From the NCBI GenBank assembly GCA_031266335.1, contig JAISBF010000062.1, positions 1-33,256 of the forward strand: DNA of 33,256 nucleotides, read 5' to 3'. A program made the position numbers and the translations under genes. The notes under the pieces were generated by a model that was given only the letters and a program-made list of their open reading frames with translations, was not told the origin of the DNA and did no database searches. This document shows positions 10,550 through 23,307 of this stretch, piece after piece. This DNA comes from Verrucomicrobiales bacterium. Lineage in GTDB: Bacteria; Verrucomicrobiota; Verrucomicrobiia; Methylacidiphilales; JAAUTS01. Position 1 is the stretch's first letter. Each line of letters opens with the position of its first letter.

Positions 10550-10780
10550 ATGAGCAAGGCAAAAAAGTTGATGGCAAAGTTGATGTTAGGCCAGGCGGAC
10601 AAAAGTTTCAGCTTTGCCGACGCAGCGCTGATTTTAGCACACCAAGGGTTCACCCTGGACTTCGTCACCGGTAGCCATCACACTTTTCGCCACGCTGACG
10701 GTCGGCGGGTGACCTTGCCGAAGCACGGCAAGGACATCAAACCGCACTATGCAAAAACCATCCGGGAAACACTAACATGA
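10550..10780 (+). CDS. hicA: HicA-family toxin (mRNA interferase)
   Basis: 76 aa from ATG 10550 (MSKAKKLMAKLMLGQ); the track's GTG at 10496 lies upstream of the promoter boxes and within the palindrome, so it is rejected. The HicA dsRBD-like fold is recognisable: SFADAALILAHQGFTLDFVTGSHHTFRH (about 20-47), with the catalytic His in GSHHTF, then RRVTLPKHGKDIKPHYAKTIRE (about 51-72). Known HicA toxins cleave mRNA/tmRNA and are neutralised by HicB. It overlaps hicB by ATGA. The pair is on the plus strand inside a minus-strand phage structural module, so it looks like a moron (an independently expressed accessory insertion). Confidence 0.88.
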   Translation: MSKAKKLMAKLMLGQADKSFSFADAALILAHQGFTLDFVTGSHHTFRHADGRRVTLPKHGKDIKPHYAKTIRETLT

Positions 10781-11127
10781 AATACTTAACTAAAATTTAT
10801 TGGAGTGAGGCTGACGAGGCCTTTATCGCCGAGGTGCCGGCGTTGCGTGGCTGCGTGTCGCACGGCGCGACGCGCGAGGAGGCCGCCGCCAACATCGAGG
10901 AAGCCATGACTTCCTGGCTCGGTTCCGCGCAAAAACACGGCGATCCAATCCCCGCGCCGGATTTGGCGACGGAGGAAATTACGCGGCTGTCGCCGTTGCT
11001 GAATGTGTCCAAGCTGGCCCGGCTGACGGGGCTGAACAAACACACTTTGGCGAGCAAACTGCGGCGGCACAGCCCGTTCACCGTGCAAGAGGCGAAAAAA
11101 ATTCTGGCCGTGGTCAGGATGTTTTAA
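10777..11127 (+). CDS. hicB: HicB-family antitoxin with C-terminal DNA-binding part
   Basis: 116 aa. N-terminal partial RNase-H-like fold typical of HicB: IYWSEADEAFIAEVPALRGCVSHGATREEAAANIEEAM (about 7-44). The C-terminal segment (about 74-110, VSKLARLTGLNKHTLASKLRRHSPFTVQEAKKIL) has helix-turn-helix character and would bind the operator upstream of hicA. Translationally coupled to hicA (ATGA). By analogy with known systems it sequesters the toxin and autorepresses. On a prophage such modules can stabilise the element or act against competing phages; which applies here is not visible in sequence. Confidence 0.88.
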   Translation: MKYLTKIYWSEADEAFIAEVPALRGCVSHGATREEAAANIEEAMTSWLGSAQKHGDPIPAPDLATEEITRLSPLLNVSKLARLTGLNKHTLASKLRRHSPFTVQEAKKILAVVRMF

Positions 11128-13292: not shown

Positions 13293-14265
13293 TGACTTTC
13301 AAAACTTGGAACACCCGTTCGACTTCGGCGAGCCAGGCCGCATCGAACTCATCGTCGGCGAGGTCGCGCATTTTCGTTTTCATGCGGCGGCCGAGATTGT
13401 GGATGCTCTGAAAAATCACCGCGTGGACTTCGCGCAATGCGTCCGTCACCGCCGCGCGGCTGACCATCTCGCCGCTGGCCTTGAGCACGTCCGGGCTGGT
13501 CTTTTCCAGCGCGCGGAGTTGGTTGGCGAGGTCGGACCAGATTTTGGATTTAATTTTGATGTCGCCCTCGTTGCGCTCATCGTCGGTGACGCGCAGCGCC
13601 GCCATGTAGTCCGCGTGCGCCTCGCGCTCGGCTTCGCGCAGCCGGATCAACATGCCGCTCAACCCCAGATCGCCGCTCACGCTCAACGGTGGCCGCGCGA
13701 CCGGTGGCGCGGCGGGCGGCGCTGATCGTGGTGCCGGCGCTGACGTTGGCGGCGGTGGATCACTGGCGGCGGCGGCGCGCGCGGCGGTGAGTAATTTATC
13801 AGGCACTCGCTGTGTCATCCGCCGCGCCCACCACTCCGGCATCAGTGCCGGCGCGTCGAACGGCGGGTAGTCACCGTCAGCGTCCGCGCCGATTTTGCGC
13901 CAGCTTTTGACCGTGCGCTCGGCGACGCCGTACCGCGCGGCGTAGTCAGTGTAGGCGCGCTGGTACTTCGGCCGCTTGACCGGGTTGACCGGCAACGGCT
14001 CGCGGTCGGCACGGGTGAAAGTTTCTGCCGGGATGATGTCGTTGATTTCATCAACTTCCGCGTCGGTGAGCCGTCCGCCCTCCGCCCACTTGCGAATGAG
14101 CGCGGCCTGGCGGCGCGCGCGCAAGTCCTCGCTGTGCGCCGCGAACTCGGCCATCAACTCGCGCTCGCCCGCCGACAGCGGCTTGCCCGCGCTGACTTTT
14201 TTGATGACGTTGGCGAGGTCGGCGTCGAGCACTTTCCCTGCTAGCTCCGGCGTGACGTTAGGCAT
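13270..14265 (-). CDS. Terminase small subunit-like DNA-binding protein
   Basis: 331 aa starting MPNVTPELAGKVLDADLANV. Residues about 105-130 form a helix-turn-helix (YTDYAARYGVAERTVKSWRKIG) of the Nu1/terminase-small type. A long Ala/Pro/Ser linker follows (about 160-200, SDPPPPTSAPAPRSAPPAA), then a helical C-terminal domain (LREAEREAHADYMAALR, RALEKTSPDVLKASG) that would contact the large subunit. It is longer than lambda Nu1 because of the linker and C-terminal domain. The start overlaps the methyltransferase stop by 8 nt and its end overlaps the large subunit start by 23 nt, so the three genes are a tight operon. GTCAGCG/CGCTGAC words fall in the HTH-flanking and linker regions. Confidence 0.75.
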   Translation of the reverse strand: MPNVTPELAGKVLDADLANVIKKVSAGKPLSAGERELMAEFAAHSEDLRARRQAALIRKWAEGGRLTDAEVDEINDIIPAETFTRADREPLPVNPVKRPKYQRAYTDYAARYGVAERTVKSWRKIGADADGDYPPFDAPALMPEWWARRMTQRVPDKLLTAARAAAASDPPPPTSAPAPRSAPPAAPPVARPPLSVSGDLGLSGMLIRLREAEREAHADYMAALRVTDDERNEGDIKIKSKIWSDLANQLRALEKTSPDVLKASGEMVSRAAVTDALREVHAVIFQSIHNLGRRMKTKMRDLADDEFDAAWLAEVERVFQVLKVNEFTAAT

Positions 14266-15640
14266 GAAGCTCTCCCGTTCCGAGCCACGTTTCGTTTTCC
14301 GGCACGCACGCCGTCAGCGTTTCCTCAATGTCGGCGACGGGAAAAAGCTCGGCGATTTTTTTCACGTCGCCCTTGTAAAAGACTAACACGTTTTGATGCA
14401 CCCGCGCCACCTTGCGGCTGTTGCTCATGTATTGATAGGCGCGGCGTGACGCGCTGGACAGGCAATCGGCGAGGATGAGGTCGTTGTAAAACAACAGCCC
14501 GCGCCGCTGGAAAATTTTTACGACCGCGCCGGCGAGGTCGTGATAGCCGCCCGTTTTTTTGTCGCGCACATTGCTCACCACTACCACGGCGAAACGATTT
14601 TCTTTCAGCGTCAGCGCTGCGTCGCCGAGCGCCTTATCCAGAACCACGATGAACTCTTCAAAGGTCGGCGCGTTGCTCGCGTCGTTCGGCAGGTTGCTGT
14701 ATTTTTCAAGGTTGTAATACGGCGGGCACGAGAACAAGAAATCCTGCGACTCGGGCGCGACGTGCCGGAGCACATTACAGCCGTCATCACAAATGTAGCG
14801 CCCGGACAAGCCGGCGGCGGCGAGCCGTTGCCCATTCAAGTCACATTGCTCTTGCCGCAACTCGACGCCGGTAAATTCGCACCCCTTGAACGCGCTGACG
14901 AAGCCGAACGCCGCGCCGCCGGCGAACGGGTCAAGGCAGCGCGGCTTGACGCCGTGCGGCATCCCGAACCACAGCAACATCAATTCACATAACACCGGGT
15001 CTAACAAACTGACGGCAGGCAACGCCATTTGGAACTGACCTTCCTTCGGCAGGCAACCGGCGCGCGTTTCACCGCCGTCGCCGATGAGCGTGTTCCATAA
15101 TTTTTTTCTGCCTAACCACTGAAACACCCGCAAAATCGAGAATGGCGCGACGCCGAATTTTTCTTTCAAGTCGCGCACCGGCTTTTCCTCGCCGTCAGCG
15201 GCGGGCGGTAGGCCGTCCACCAGCGCGGCCAGTTCATCCTCCGTCCAGCCCGCCAGGGACGCTGACAGTGACGCGGCGTTTAACTCAGCGGCCAGCGCCG
15301 TCAGTGTCGCGTCGTCGAACTCGCCGATGAGACTGTTGGCGGCAATCAACCGCGCTACATGCGTGGCCTCGTCGTAATCCACGAGCGACACATCAGCGTG
15401 CGTGAATCCCGACGCCAGCAAAATCTTATGCCGCAAATGCCCCGACACCAGCATCCCGTTCCGCCGATTCACCACCAGCGGATCAAAATAATCTCGCTCC
15501 AAACTTTTCTTCAACACCAGCCATGCCGCCGAATTTTCCTCCGGATGCTTGCGCGGATTCTTCGGATGCGGCTTGATGTCTGCCAGCGCCAGCCTCCGCA
15601 CCTCAATCACCGCCGTCCGCTCATCAGTCTTTGTCTCCAT
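14258..15640 (-). CDS. ParB-like N-terminal domain fused to DNA methyltransferase
   Basis: 460 aa. Residues about 11-100 are a ParB/sulfiredoxin-like nuclease-fold domain (LADIKPHPKNPRKHPEEN, then MLVSGHLRHKILLASG, the equivalent of the ParB GxRR region). The C-terminal half is an S-adenosylmethionine-dependent DNA methyltransferase: motif I CLDPFAGGAAFG (about 235-246), catalytic motif IV SCPPYYN (about 304-310; Cys stands where Asp, Asn or Ser is usual), and VVVVSNVRDKKTGGYHD. Such fusions are common in phages and are thought to methylate phage DNA; target base and site are unknown. It is first in the operon with the terminase genes. TTGACT lies 19 nt upstream of the ATG. Confidence 0.85.
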   Translation of the reverse strand: METKTDERTAVIEVRRLALADIKPHPKNPRKHPEENSAAWLVLKKSLERDYFDPLVVNRRNGMLVSGHLRHKILLASGFTHADVSLVDYDEATHVARLIAANSLIGEFDDATLTALAAELNAASLSASLAGWTEDELAALVDGLPPAADGEEKPVRDLKEKFGVAPFSILRVFQWLGRKKLWNTLIGDGGETRAGCLPKEGQFQMALPAVSLLDPVLCELMLLWFGMPHGVKPRCLDPFAGGAAFGFVSAFKGCEFTGVELRQEQCDLNGQRLAAAGLSGRYICDDGCNVLRHVAPESQDFLFSCPPYYNLEKYSNLPNDASNAPTFEEFIVVLDKALGDAALTLKENRFAVVVVSNVRDKKTGGYHDLAGAVVKIFQRRGLLFYNDLILADCLSSASRRAYQYMSNSRKVARVHQNVLVFYKGDVKKIAELFPVADIEETLTACVPENETWLGTGELHA

Positions 15641-15659
15641 ATCCCCGCGTCAAAGTCAA
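15641..15659 (-). promoter_or_regulatory. TTGACT start-associated element (ParB-methyltransferase gene)
   Basis: TTGACTTTGACGCGGGGAT abuts the ATG; the outer TTGAC is exactly 19 nt away and a second TTGAC lies at 13 nt. GGGGAT is shared with the element upstream of the capsid gene. Confidence 0.45.
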
Positions 15660-15774
15660 AACCCGCCTGCAAAAGTGCAAAAAATTTTTCACCCCCCGCG
15701 CATAAAAACCCCCTGCTGACTCCAAAGCCGCAGATTATTTCTAGCGGCAAAAAGATTCCTTTTCGCGCCAGGTG

Positions 15775-16075
15775 CATAGGTGCATAGGTCGAGGCGCGAA
15801 GTGCAACGCCTACGCATATATAGTGCTTTTTTCCGTTTTTTCATGGATAACATAATACCTATGTTACCTATGCCACCTATACCTATTAAGAGATAAGTAC
15901 ATGAATATCAAATAGTTAAGCGCCGCATAGGTGGCAAACAAAAAGGCACAGGCGGCATAGGTAAGAATTTTGTTAAAAAATAAAAAGCGAGGGGAACGGG
16001 GAAATGGCGGCAAAAATAGGCATAGGTAGCATAGGTCGATCTTAAGGTGAGGGGAAATAAAGAGCGGCACCTATG
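15775..16075. repeat. CATAGGT/ACCTATG iteron cluster, candidate phage replication origin
   Basis: About eleven copies of CATAGGT or its complement ACCTATG occur in this gene-free 300-bp stretch. Exact or near-exact copies are at 15775 and 15783 (direct pair), 15857, 15866, 15875 and 15881 (inverted block, the last two degenerate), 15926, 15956, 16021, 16030 and 16069. Spacings of 8-9 bp are frequent. AT-rich tracts lie between them (ATATATAG near 15817, GTTAAAAAATAAAAAG near 15972). The cluster is directly downstream of the primase/helicase-like gene. Iterons with AT-rich DNA beside a replication gene are the classic form of a theta origin; alternatively they could be operators. The 68-aa ORF inside is not convincing. 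Confidence 0.65.
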
Positions 16076-16129
16076 CCTGTTAGCTGGGTGCCGCCTTACA
16101 GTCGATTACGTCGTTATTGAGGCGCGATG

Positions 16130-17851
16130 TCAAACTACCGCTACATCGCCGGCAGCGGGGGATGTTGGCGGCGGCACGCTACTAGTTGAGCCATCGAGCA
16201 ACTCAACGTCATAACGCCGCTGACGATTACGGCCACGCTTGGAAAATCTCACACGCCGACCGTCTTGTAAATTAAAAATGCTGCCGCCGTATTTATCGGC
16301 GAGCAATTTTCCCATTCGAGATGCGGCCGCCGGCTTGCAATCGTACCAAACATCATCCCCGCTGCCACGCTTAACGCGCTCAATCATCCAGGCGAAACAG
16401 TTGTTAGCCACGCACACGGCAATCACTTCATCGAAATCGTAATGCAACAAAAATCTAACCTCACCGTCAGCGTCAGCAATGCCAAGTTTTTGGGAAAGTT
16501 TTTCAACCAACAACGCCATGTCCGCAGCCTCATTGTCACCAGACTCCTCGATCGGCGGCGGCACCAGCGCGTCGCCGAACCCGGCGTGCCACACAATACC
16601 ACCATATACCCGCGACCATTCCACAAACCCCTTCATCACTGTCGGCGGCACTGGACGCCGTGCCACGTCCCAAGCTCGCACCAGTGCCCACAGTGCACTT
16701 AAAAAATCGCCGCGCACCGCCAGCCGCTGGAAAAACTCATTGCTCAATTCATGTTCAATTTTGCGGTCGCGACTGTTGCTCTGCTCGATGTGAAGTTTGC
16801 ACTCCAGTGAACGGCGGGCAATGTCCTGCTGCAATGTCAAGTTGTTGCCCGCTAAATAACACACCGTCATGCGCGGCGCGCGAAACAACGACTGTTTGTT
16901 AAACAACCGACCCGTGCGAAAATCCGACGTGATAAAAGCGTTGAGGTCGCCGTTTTTCACTACGCCCTCCAGCTCATCAAAAAATAAATATGGCACCGAG
17001 TTCATCACCGCCGAGTCCAGCGTCTTGCGAAATTCATTTTTATCTTCGGGAATAGTGAGCGACTCACACGATCCCATCACCGTCGCCACCGCCATATTCA
17101 CCAGCAGCGTCTTGCCGCTCCCTGGCTTGTTAGCCGAATAAATAAACGACGGCCGCGGCGATGTAAAACCTAACAAGTCCGGAGCGAACATGGACACCAT
17201 TGAGACGACATGCACCGCCAAATCGCGCGGCGACAGAAACGGAAACTCCTTCAACATCGCGCGCAGGAACGCCACCGCGCGATCAAGCGACCACGCCTCA
17301 TCAATCACCACCGGAGAACGTAGCGTAAAAATTTCTGCGAACGCGTCATAACCAGCCGGCAACAAAACAATCGCCCCGTCAGCGCGCATCACTGGCTGAC
17401 GCTGGGCGTTGACCTTTTTTAGTTTTGGCAATCGACCGACAAACTGGTCAGCCCGCAAACACCCCCGCGCATCCTGCACCGACATCGTGCATTCCACCTT
17501 TTTCCACGGCTCGGCACCGTTGGCGGCATTCTTGTCATACTTCAAAAAGTATGTTAGGGCATGTTCTTCCAAAAACGTACGAAACCGGTCCGCATCCAGC
17601 GGCTCCATCAACCCAATGTCTTCATTGACCGTTACCGCCGCCGTCTCGCGCCGAAACACATTCACCGCCGCGCAAATCCCGCCCGCCTCGCGCGCGAAAT
17701 CAGACAATCGTCGCCCAGCGCGAATTAGCTCAATCGTCGGTAACGCTCGCTCATCTTTCACCTCACCGTCAGTGACCGACGGCTCCGGCGATGGAACCGC
17801 AACTCCACGCTCACGCAAAACTTTATTTACTGCGTCAGATTGCTCGCTCAT
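16130..17851 (-). CDS. Phage primase/helicase-like ATPase
   Basis: 573 aa from ATG 17851 (MSEQSDAVNKVLRERG), chosen over the track's start at 17872 because AAAGGTG lies 3-9 nt upstream. Walker A is ANKPGSGKTLL (about 240-250) and Walker B is PYLFFDELEG (about 287-296); CYLAGNNLTLQQDIARRSLECKL includes an arginine-finger-like segment. The C-terminal third has a strongly basic stretch (RFSKRGRNRQRRYDVELL). This resembles the helicase half of phage/plasmid replication proteins that act at iteron origins. The N-terminal 170 residues may be a degenerate primase-type or origin-binding part; I see no clear zinc or TOPRIM motif. It is directly followed by the iteron cluster. The downstream edge carries another TTGACATCGCGCC copy. 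Confidence 0.75.
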   Translation of the reverse strand: MSEQSDAVNKVLRERGVAVPSPEPSVTDGEVKDERALPTIELIRAGRRLSDFAREAGGICAAVNVFRRETAAVTVNEDIGLMEPLDADRFRTFLEEHALTYFLKYDKNAANGAEPWKKVECTMSVQDARGCLRADQFVGRLPKLKKVNAQRQPVMRADGAIVLLPAGYDAFAEIFTLRSPVVIDEAWSLDRAVAFLRAMLKEFPFLSPRDLAVHVVSMVSMFAPDLLGFTSPRPSFIYSANKPGSGKTLLVNMAVATVMGSCESLTIPEDKNEFRKTLDSAVMNSVPYLFFDELEGVVKNGDLNAFITSDFRTGRLFNKQSLFRAPRMTVCYLAGNNLTLQQDIARRSLECKLHIEQSNSRDRKIEHELSNEFFQRLAVRGDFLSALWALVRAWDVARRPVPPTVMKGFVEWSRVYGGIVWHAGFGDALVPPPIEESGDNEAADMALLVEKLSQKLGIADADGEVRFLLHYDFDEVIAVCVANNCFAWMIERVKRGSGDDVWYDCKPAAASRMGKLLADKYGGSIFNLQDGRRVRFSKRGRNRQRRYDVELLDGSTSSVPPPTSPAAGDVAVV

Positions 17852-17987
17852 AACACCTTTTTTAACGAGCAAAAATCAAATCCGAATACCCTTCACCCCT
17901 TCAAAAAATGGAAAGATGTAACGAAAAAGTGTAACGAAATATACTAACCAACTGGGAATTAAGGTGTTAAGACCGCAAACGCGCTCA

Positions 17988-18024
17988 GTGTGAAGCAGGC
18001 GCTCTACCACTAAGCTAAGGCTCC
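17988..18024 (-). tRNA. 5' part of tRNA-Val(CAC), truncated at the anticodon loop; probable prophage attachment site
   Basis: On the minus strand, GGAGCCTTAGCTTAGTGGTA and the bases that follow give a 7-nt acceptor strand, a canonical D-arm and the 5' anticodon stem CCTGC with loop TTCACAC (anticodon CAC). The sequence after the loop (TGAGCGCG) cannot pair with CCTGC. No TTCGA-type T-arm or AGGCTCC acceptor partner follows. Homology therefore stops in the anticodon loop, a known crossover position for tyrosine recombinases. The tRNA-like part faces the host genes and the divergent part faces the phage. Confidence 0.6.
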
Positions 18025-18123
18025 GTAACGGGCAGGGTCAAACGCTAGCCGTGAAAGAAATTTGTCGCAAGCTTAATTGTTCATCCGCAGCGTTATTCCG
18101 TGTCATGAACGCCGGGAAGATGT

Positions 18124-22646: not shown

Positions 22647-22760
22647 GCTTGGGCTAACCTATTGAGTTTGCGTCAGATAACGCCGCGCCGCGCAACACCA
22701 ACGCTTCGCCGCCAAGGACGGTTTCCTCGCAAAAAAGAAGCAGTCCCCGGCCAAATGGGA

Positions 22761-23307
22761 GCAGGTCTTCAGTCGCCGAAGAGCACTCTTCAGTCATCGA
22801 GGACTAGGTCTTCAGTCACCGAGGAACAGGTCTTCAGTCACCGGGGAACAGGTCTTCAGTCACCGGGGAACAGGTCTTCAGTCACCGGGGAACAGGTCTT
22901 CAGTCATCGGGGACTAGGTCTTCAGTCACCGAAGACTACCCTTCAGTCACCGAGGAACAGGTCTTCAGTCACCGGGGAACAGGTCTTCAGTCACCGAGGA
23001 CTAGGTCTTCAGTCACCGAAGACTACTCTTCAGTCATCGAGGAACAGGTCTTCAGTCACCGGGGAATAGGTCTTCAGTCACCGAGGACTAGGTCTTCAGT
23101 CACCGAAGACTACCCTTCAGTCACCGAGGAACAGGTCTTCAGTCACCGAAGACTACTCTTCAGTCATCGAGGAACAGGTCTTCAGTCACCGGGGAACAGG
23201 TCTTCAGTCATCGGGGACTAGGTCTTTAGTCACCGAAGACTACCCTTCAGTCACCGAGGAACAGGTCTTCAGTCACCGAAGAAAAGCCTTCAGTCATCGG
23301 GGAACAG
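22761..23307. repeat. 22-bp tandem repeat array, about 25 units
   Basis: The consensus unit is GGTCTTCAGTCACCGRGGAACA with variants (GAAGACTACTC, GAGGACTA, GGGGAACA), repeated without spacers about 25 times. Since 22 is not a multiple of 3 and the units lack stops, the 135-aa ORF at 22662-23069 is a by-product. Units with GTCTTC-AGTCACC-GAAGAC can form a 6-bp hairpin. The variants follow a partly ordered higher-order pattern (roughly every fourth to fifth unit is the GAAGACTA type), suggesting unequal crossover or segment duplication. One further unit lies beyond the inserted element at 23523-23561. Confidence 0.9.

Follow-up and report, generated by a model that had tools for sequence, protein, structure and literature searches.

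What is the function of a dense cluster of short repeats that lies between a helicase gene and a gene for a ParB-like methyltransferase in a Verrucomicrobiales prophage? The DNA analysed here, 33,256 nucleotides to which we refer as the window, is a complete contig (C44) from a metagenome-assembled genome. Exact copies of CATAGGT, counted on both strands, occur in it nine times, every one inside 15775-16075, with starts at 15775, 15783, 15926, 15956, 16021 and 16030 on the plus strand and at 15857, 15866 and 16069 on the minus strand. Together with two near copies, ACCTATA (15875-15881) and ACCTATT (15881-15887), they make up the approximately eleven heptamers counted in the initial annotation. 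In dinucleotide shuffles of the whole window, the heptamer is expected with a mean of 0.84 and a maximum of 4 copies, as compared with the nine observed. The gap that contains the repeats (15641-16129, 489 bp) holds no long open reading frame and has a GC content of 0.458 versus 0.60 for the prophage, and its description as a gene-free, AT-rich stretch is therefore correct, as is the identification of its neighbors, the helicase gene (16130-17851) and the ParB-like/methyltransferase gene (14258-15640), both on the minus strand. The repeats are thus far beyond chance and confined to the helicase/methyltransferase gap. As boxes for host initiators are frequent in origins, one could think of binding sites for a host protein such as DnaA, and yet this is scarcely credible: outside the array, tandem CATAGGT pairs are missing from the host assembly and from nearly all related genomes (they were found in 3 of 142, namely the source genome, G085 at the same helicase locus, and G067 with one pair), the letters of the heptamer vary among phages of a single phylum, and there is no excess of DnaA boxes in the window, where exact matches to TTWTNCACA are absent and single-mismatch matches occur at chance level.

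Two copies spaced by 8 bp (15775-15781 and 15783-15789, plus strand) form one side of an inner core, and the other side (15857-15887, minus strand) is inverted relative to them and consists of ACCTATG at 15857-15863, ACCTATG at 15866-15872 and the two near copies. Between these blocks lies a spacer (15790-15856) whose portion 15816-15856 is 76% A+T (GC content 0.24) and which we propose as the unwinding element. Read in the orientation of the helicase gene, the core begins with 15857-15887, continues with the spacer and ends with 15775-15789, with iteron spacings of 9-9-74-8. Beyond the core, there are two single auxiliary iterons (15926-15932 and 15956-15962, plus strand), an auxiliary pair spaced by 9 bp (16021-16036, plus strand), and an outermost single iteron (16069-16075, minus strand) about 55 bp past the helicase stop codon. 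The spacing of 8-9 bp given in the initial annotation therefore holds inside the blocks (15775/15783, 15857/15866/15875 and 16021/16030), whereas the heptamers at 15926, 15956 and 16069 are isolated. The core DNA can form a long hairpin (z -3.8), which the inverted iterons suffice to explain. A GC-skew analysis, recommended as a check, gave no clear switch at the array.

The gene next to the array encodes a protein of 573 amino acids, counted from the ATG at 17851, which we assign to the D5/SF3-type initiator helicases on the basis of its predicted structure. The AlphaFold model, built from an alignment of 40 sequences, has a pLDDT of 90.8, and a Foldseek search of the PDB with this model returned SaPI5 Rep (7ola/7pds, probability 1.00), MPXV E5/D5 and the ASFV PrimPol, and also PriRep1 with dsDNA; the sequence identity to SaPI Rep is 12-13%, and this match reflects structural resemblance only. 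At the sequence level, a Pfam search assigned the protein to no family and gave no Rep_3-type match, and the sole match of its profile among PDB sequences was insignificant. Relatives of the helicase are fused to a CHC2 zinc ribbon and Toprim-like primase domains, or to DnaB-N. The gene had initially been called a primase/helicase, of which the helicase part stands, whereas a primase domain is lacking from the protein; a primase-like gene is present on another contig, C46. The classical iteron theta plasmid, with a Rep_3 winged-helix Rep and DnaA boxes, was also considered as a model and was rejected, since the protein has a D5/SF3 fold instead and DnaA boxes are lacking in the window.

The initial annotation had named missing conservation in relatives as evidence against an origin, but the repeats proved to be conserved. 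Relatives of the helicase were collected from whole genomes, GTDB contigs and viral contigs; in the latter, a single-protein scan for close relatives gave none, and an alignment-based scan did give relatives. Many of these relatives, which come mostly from Verrucomicrobiota and metagenomic phages, have an iteron array immediately 3' of their helicase gene. ACCTATG/CATAGGT itself occurs directly 3' of helicases with 41% (L055) and 35% (L058) identity to that of the window, and at several helicases with 30-43% identity. Dereplication at 80% left 51 helicase loci, of which 22 had some 7-mer in four or more copies downstream of the helicase, in comparison to 2 of 51 in the gene body, 4 of 42 upstream and 4 of 46 further downstream; with at least five copies, the corresponding numbers were 12 versus 0, 1 and 0. 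CATAGGT reaches a density of 1.89 per kb downstream of the helicases, which is 66 times the 0.028 per kb found in the rest of these loci. Other lineages have ACCCATG, ACCTGTG, ACCTGCA, ACCATG, ACCTTGA or ACCCCTG in the same place. More than half of the helicase relatives had no array in this exact 7-mer test, and some of these have degenerate or in-gene repeats. No array was found downstream of the helicase of the Akkermansia phage Moulinsart (26% identity). In G002, a genome of the same genus, CATAGGT is absent from the locus (L065:3860-4410), and the helicase gene there is broken, with 74% identity over the first 130 residues; this copy is a decayed relative of the prophage. One helicase subgroup (L071, L083, L096 and L101-L105) carries a second repeat family, CGGAAC, in 6-10 copies that adjoin the ACCTATG array and lie approximately 350-550 bp past the helicase match.

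These comparisons bear on two explanations without a role in replication. As the methyltransferase and packaging genes are preceded by the long gap in which the array is located, and as tandem operators are common in phages, the heptamers could be operators at which a phage repressor or activator controls the methyltransferase/terminase operon. We regard this as improbable, since the location of the array follows the helicase irrespective of the next gene downstream, the array overlaps the 3' end of the helicase open reading frame in several relatives, and of 21 loci that encode a related methyltransferase, not one had clustered CATAGGT. The repeats could also be a parS-like centromere for phage ParB proteins, for which one could invoke the ParB-like fusion protein encoded next to the array and a true ParB with an HTH_ParB domain on contig C46 (726 amino acids, L201:4237-6417, adjoining the primase-like gene). 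However, the array is not associated with the ParB-methyltransferase at other loci, and the parS sites of HTH-bearing ParB proteins are palindromic, whereas the sites in the window are 7 bp long, non-palindromic and 8-10 bp apart, which makes a centromere very improbable. The array accompanies the helicase, not the ParB-methyltransferase, and we judge the latter gene (14258-15640), in which a ParB-like domain is fused to a DNA methyltransferase, to lie outside the origin.

The relatives share more than the position of the repeats. Viewed in helicase orientation, array loci have a core in common, in which two or three iterons at intervals of 8-10 bp are followed by a partly AT-rich spacer of about 55-100 bp and then by inverted iterons. 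When this geometry was tested automatically with blindly chosen motifs, it was detected in 13 of 23 array loci, versus 0.88 expected from random placement, and in none of the controls (0 of 50 and 0 of 46). In the spacer, the initial 40 bp are 60% AT compared with a background of 44% (p = 6e-5, n = 20 loci, a statistic that ignores relatedness). The core geometry is shared, while the letters of the iterons differ between lineages.

A protein search of plasmids identified a system in which this arrangement has been studied experimentally, the Streptomyces plasmid pWTY27. Its RepA has 26% identity to the window helicase over 355 amino acids (E 1e-21; profile E about 1e-43), and the alignment covers the motor domain and leaves out the C-terminal domains, which have diverged beyond alignment. 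The genes repAB and the iterons are the basic replication locus of this plasmid, and its replication is bidirectional (Wang et al. 2012, PMC3583192). As in the prophage, the iterons directly follow the helicase gene, with the arrangement < 11 < 16 > 40 < 9 < 72 > 9 > 40 < 16 > 11 >, whose core spacings of 9-72-9 show the same arrangement as the 9-9-74-8 of the window. DNase I footprints of RepA cover 405-447 and 462-509 (PMC3583192), and when we placed the repeats on these coordinates, the footprints enclosed precisely the four iterons of the core (405-412, 414-421, 486-493 and 495-502) and none of the outer ones. In both elements, the primase-type gene is separate from the helicase gene, a primase-polymerase gene in pWTY27. 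They differ in being a plasmid and a prophage, in the letters of their iterons (GTGGGAAC in pWTY27, GCATAGGT in the window), and in the outer repeats, which form a near-perfect palindrome in pWTY27 and are irregular in the window. That a homologous array is bound by an initiator helicase further argues against operators, and that the geometry matches a proven origin argues against a centromere. With the conservation in relatives, pWTY27 supports the origin reading of the initial annotation; its assignment to the theta-type iteron origins needs to be modified, as the system is not of the classical Rep/DnaA type.

Similar designs are known from staphylococcal elements. The initiator helicases of SaPI and SCCmec elements bind, with their C-terminal domain, iterons directly downstream of their own genes (PMC7581432), and PICI origins have an AT-rich region between two iteron sets (PMC6092414). 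The prophage resembles the SaPI/PICI rep-ori modules in its D5/SF3 initiator helicase (PMC6092414, PMC7581432), in the position of the putative origin directly 3' of rep, and in the AT-rich region flanked by two iteron sets. In contrast to these satellites, the element described here carries terminase, portal and coat genes, and because it has its own structural genes, it is not a PICI. With SCCmec Cch2, a self-loading helicase, it shares the downstream repeats and possibly the C-terminal binding, which is a feature of Cch2 (PMC7581432), whereas the Cch2 iterons are 5-nt sequences in only three copies. In the archaeal plasmid pRN1, the origin also lies directly 3' of the SF3 helicase gene, and the encoded ORF904 protein has a C-terminal DNA-binding domain (PMC4234260), but that origin is a long stem-loop without iterons. 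By analogy to these systems, we propose that the C-terminal domain of the window helicase (approximately residues 433-558, modeled well with a pLDDT of 88.5) binds the iterons. As a Foldseek search of the PDB gave no significant structural match for this domain, the proposal that it binds DNA is based on its position and on analogy, and a winged helix, expected from the analogy to pRN1, was for the same reason dropped. When the C-terminal 'GRxRQRRY' segment was compared by eye with the iteron letters, no single specificity residue was found.

The element itself is a prophage of which contigs C44 and C46 very probably represent the two ends, because of the tRNA-Val copies, the integrase, and a common repeat pair. 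The right prophage end is marked by the att core at 17988-18025 (minus strand), which repeats the 5' half of tRNA-Val(CAC) over 38 bp and has its second copy on contig C46, where the complete tRNA-Val (17301-17372, L201) adjoins a tyrosine integrase gene. Two CGTTACA repeats 13 bp apart (17917-17936, minus strand) are probable integrase arm sites, and the same pair with the same distance is found beside the integrase at the other end. The integration site is the anticodon region of this tRNA gene, and the prophage appears to provide the 5' half of the tRNA: the complete tRNA-Val is at the integrase end, and the 5' half that was displaced is found beyond the helicase. Since terminase genes follow downstream and only 2 kb separate the array from the end of the prophage, packaging (cos/pac) sites or integrase arm sites could be suspected in the heptamers. 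This, too, is very improbable, as arm-like repeats of another sequence are found at the real ends (17917-17936 and on C46), and as Streptomyces plasmids with a homologous helicase keep the same type of array. Contig C46 also encodes a protein with a DNA-primase PHROG match, and the terminase, portal and coat genes are on C44, downstream of the array region on the same strand. A HicB-like antitoxin gene on the opposite strand (10777-11127, plus strand), probably a moron, lies between the coat genes and those for the terminase. Two further repeat regions of the contig are about 25 copies of the 22-bp unit GGAACAGGTCTTCAGTCACCGA with a higher-order period of 87 in the host part (22758-23307), and 42/84 bp tandem repeats, CCTTTAGCGGCGTCTCTAAAACC, near the contig end (32722-32973).

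Taken together, it is highly likely that the tRNA-Val prophage uses the array as its replication origin, and that the adjoining helicase is the initiator that reads the iterons and opens the core bidirectionally. The closest mechanism is that of a self-loading initiator helicase of the SaPI/pWTY27 type, not that of the classical RepA/DnaA plasmids, and the prophage origin is a fresh example of an already known kind of origin. In the mechanism that we infer for the 16130-17851 protein, its C-terminal domain would read the CATAGGT iterons, and a pair of hexamers would form at the oppositely oriented repeats of the core (15775-15887). Opening of the AT-rich DNA that separates these repeats would follow, and as the two helicase rings moved away from each other, two forks would arise and replication would proceed in both directions. 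Iterons outside the core, single or paired, may aid assembly or control copy number. A more speculative idea, to which we give clearly less credence than to the origin itself and which is somewhat more likely to be wrong than right, is a drifting code, in which the geometry of the origin stays fixed, the letters of the heptamer change together with an undescribed DNA-reading fold in the C-terminal domain, and each initiator would fire only its own origin.

In a limited search of the full-text literature, we found no description of a Verrucomicrobiota prophage origin. Our analysis provides a concrete candidate origin and initiator for such prophages, and relates them both to an origin that has been proven in a plasmid and to the design of SaPI elements. 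The layout was formerly termed unique to PICIs, but it is present in the plasmid pWTY27 and in phages too. Inverted pairs of heptamers with a spacing of about 9 bp, just 3' of a D5-type helicase gene, can be used to predict the origins of uncultured phages.
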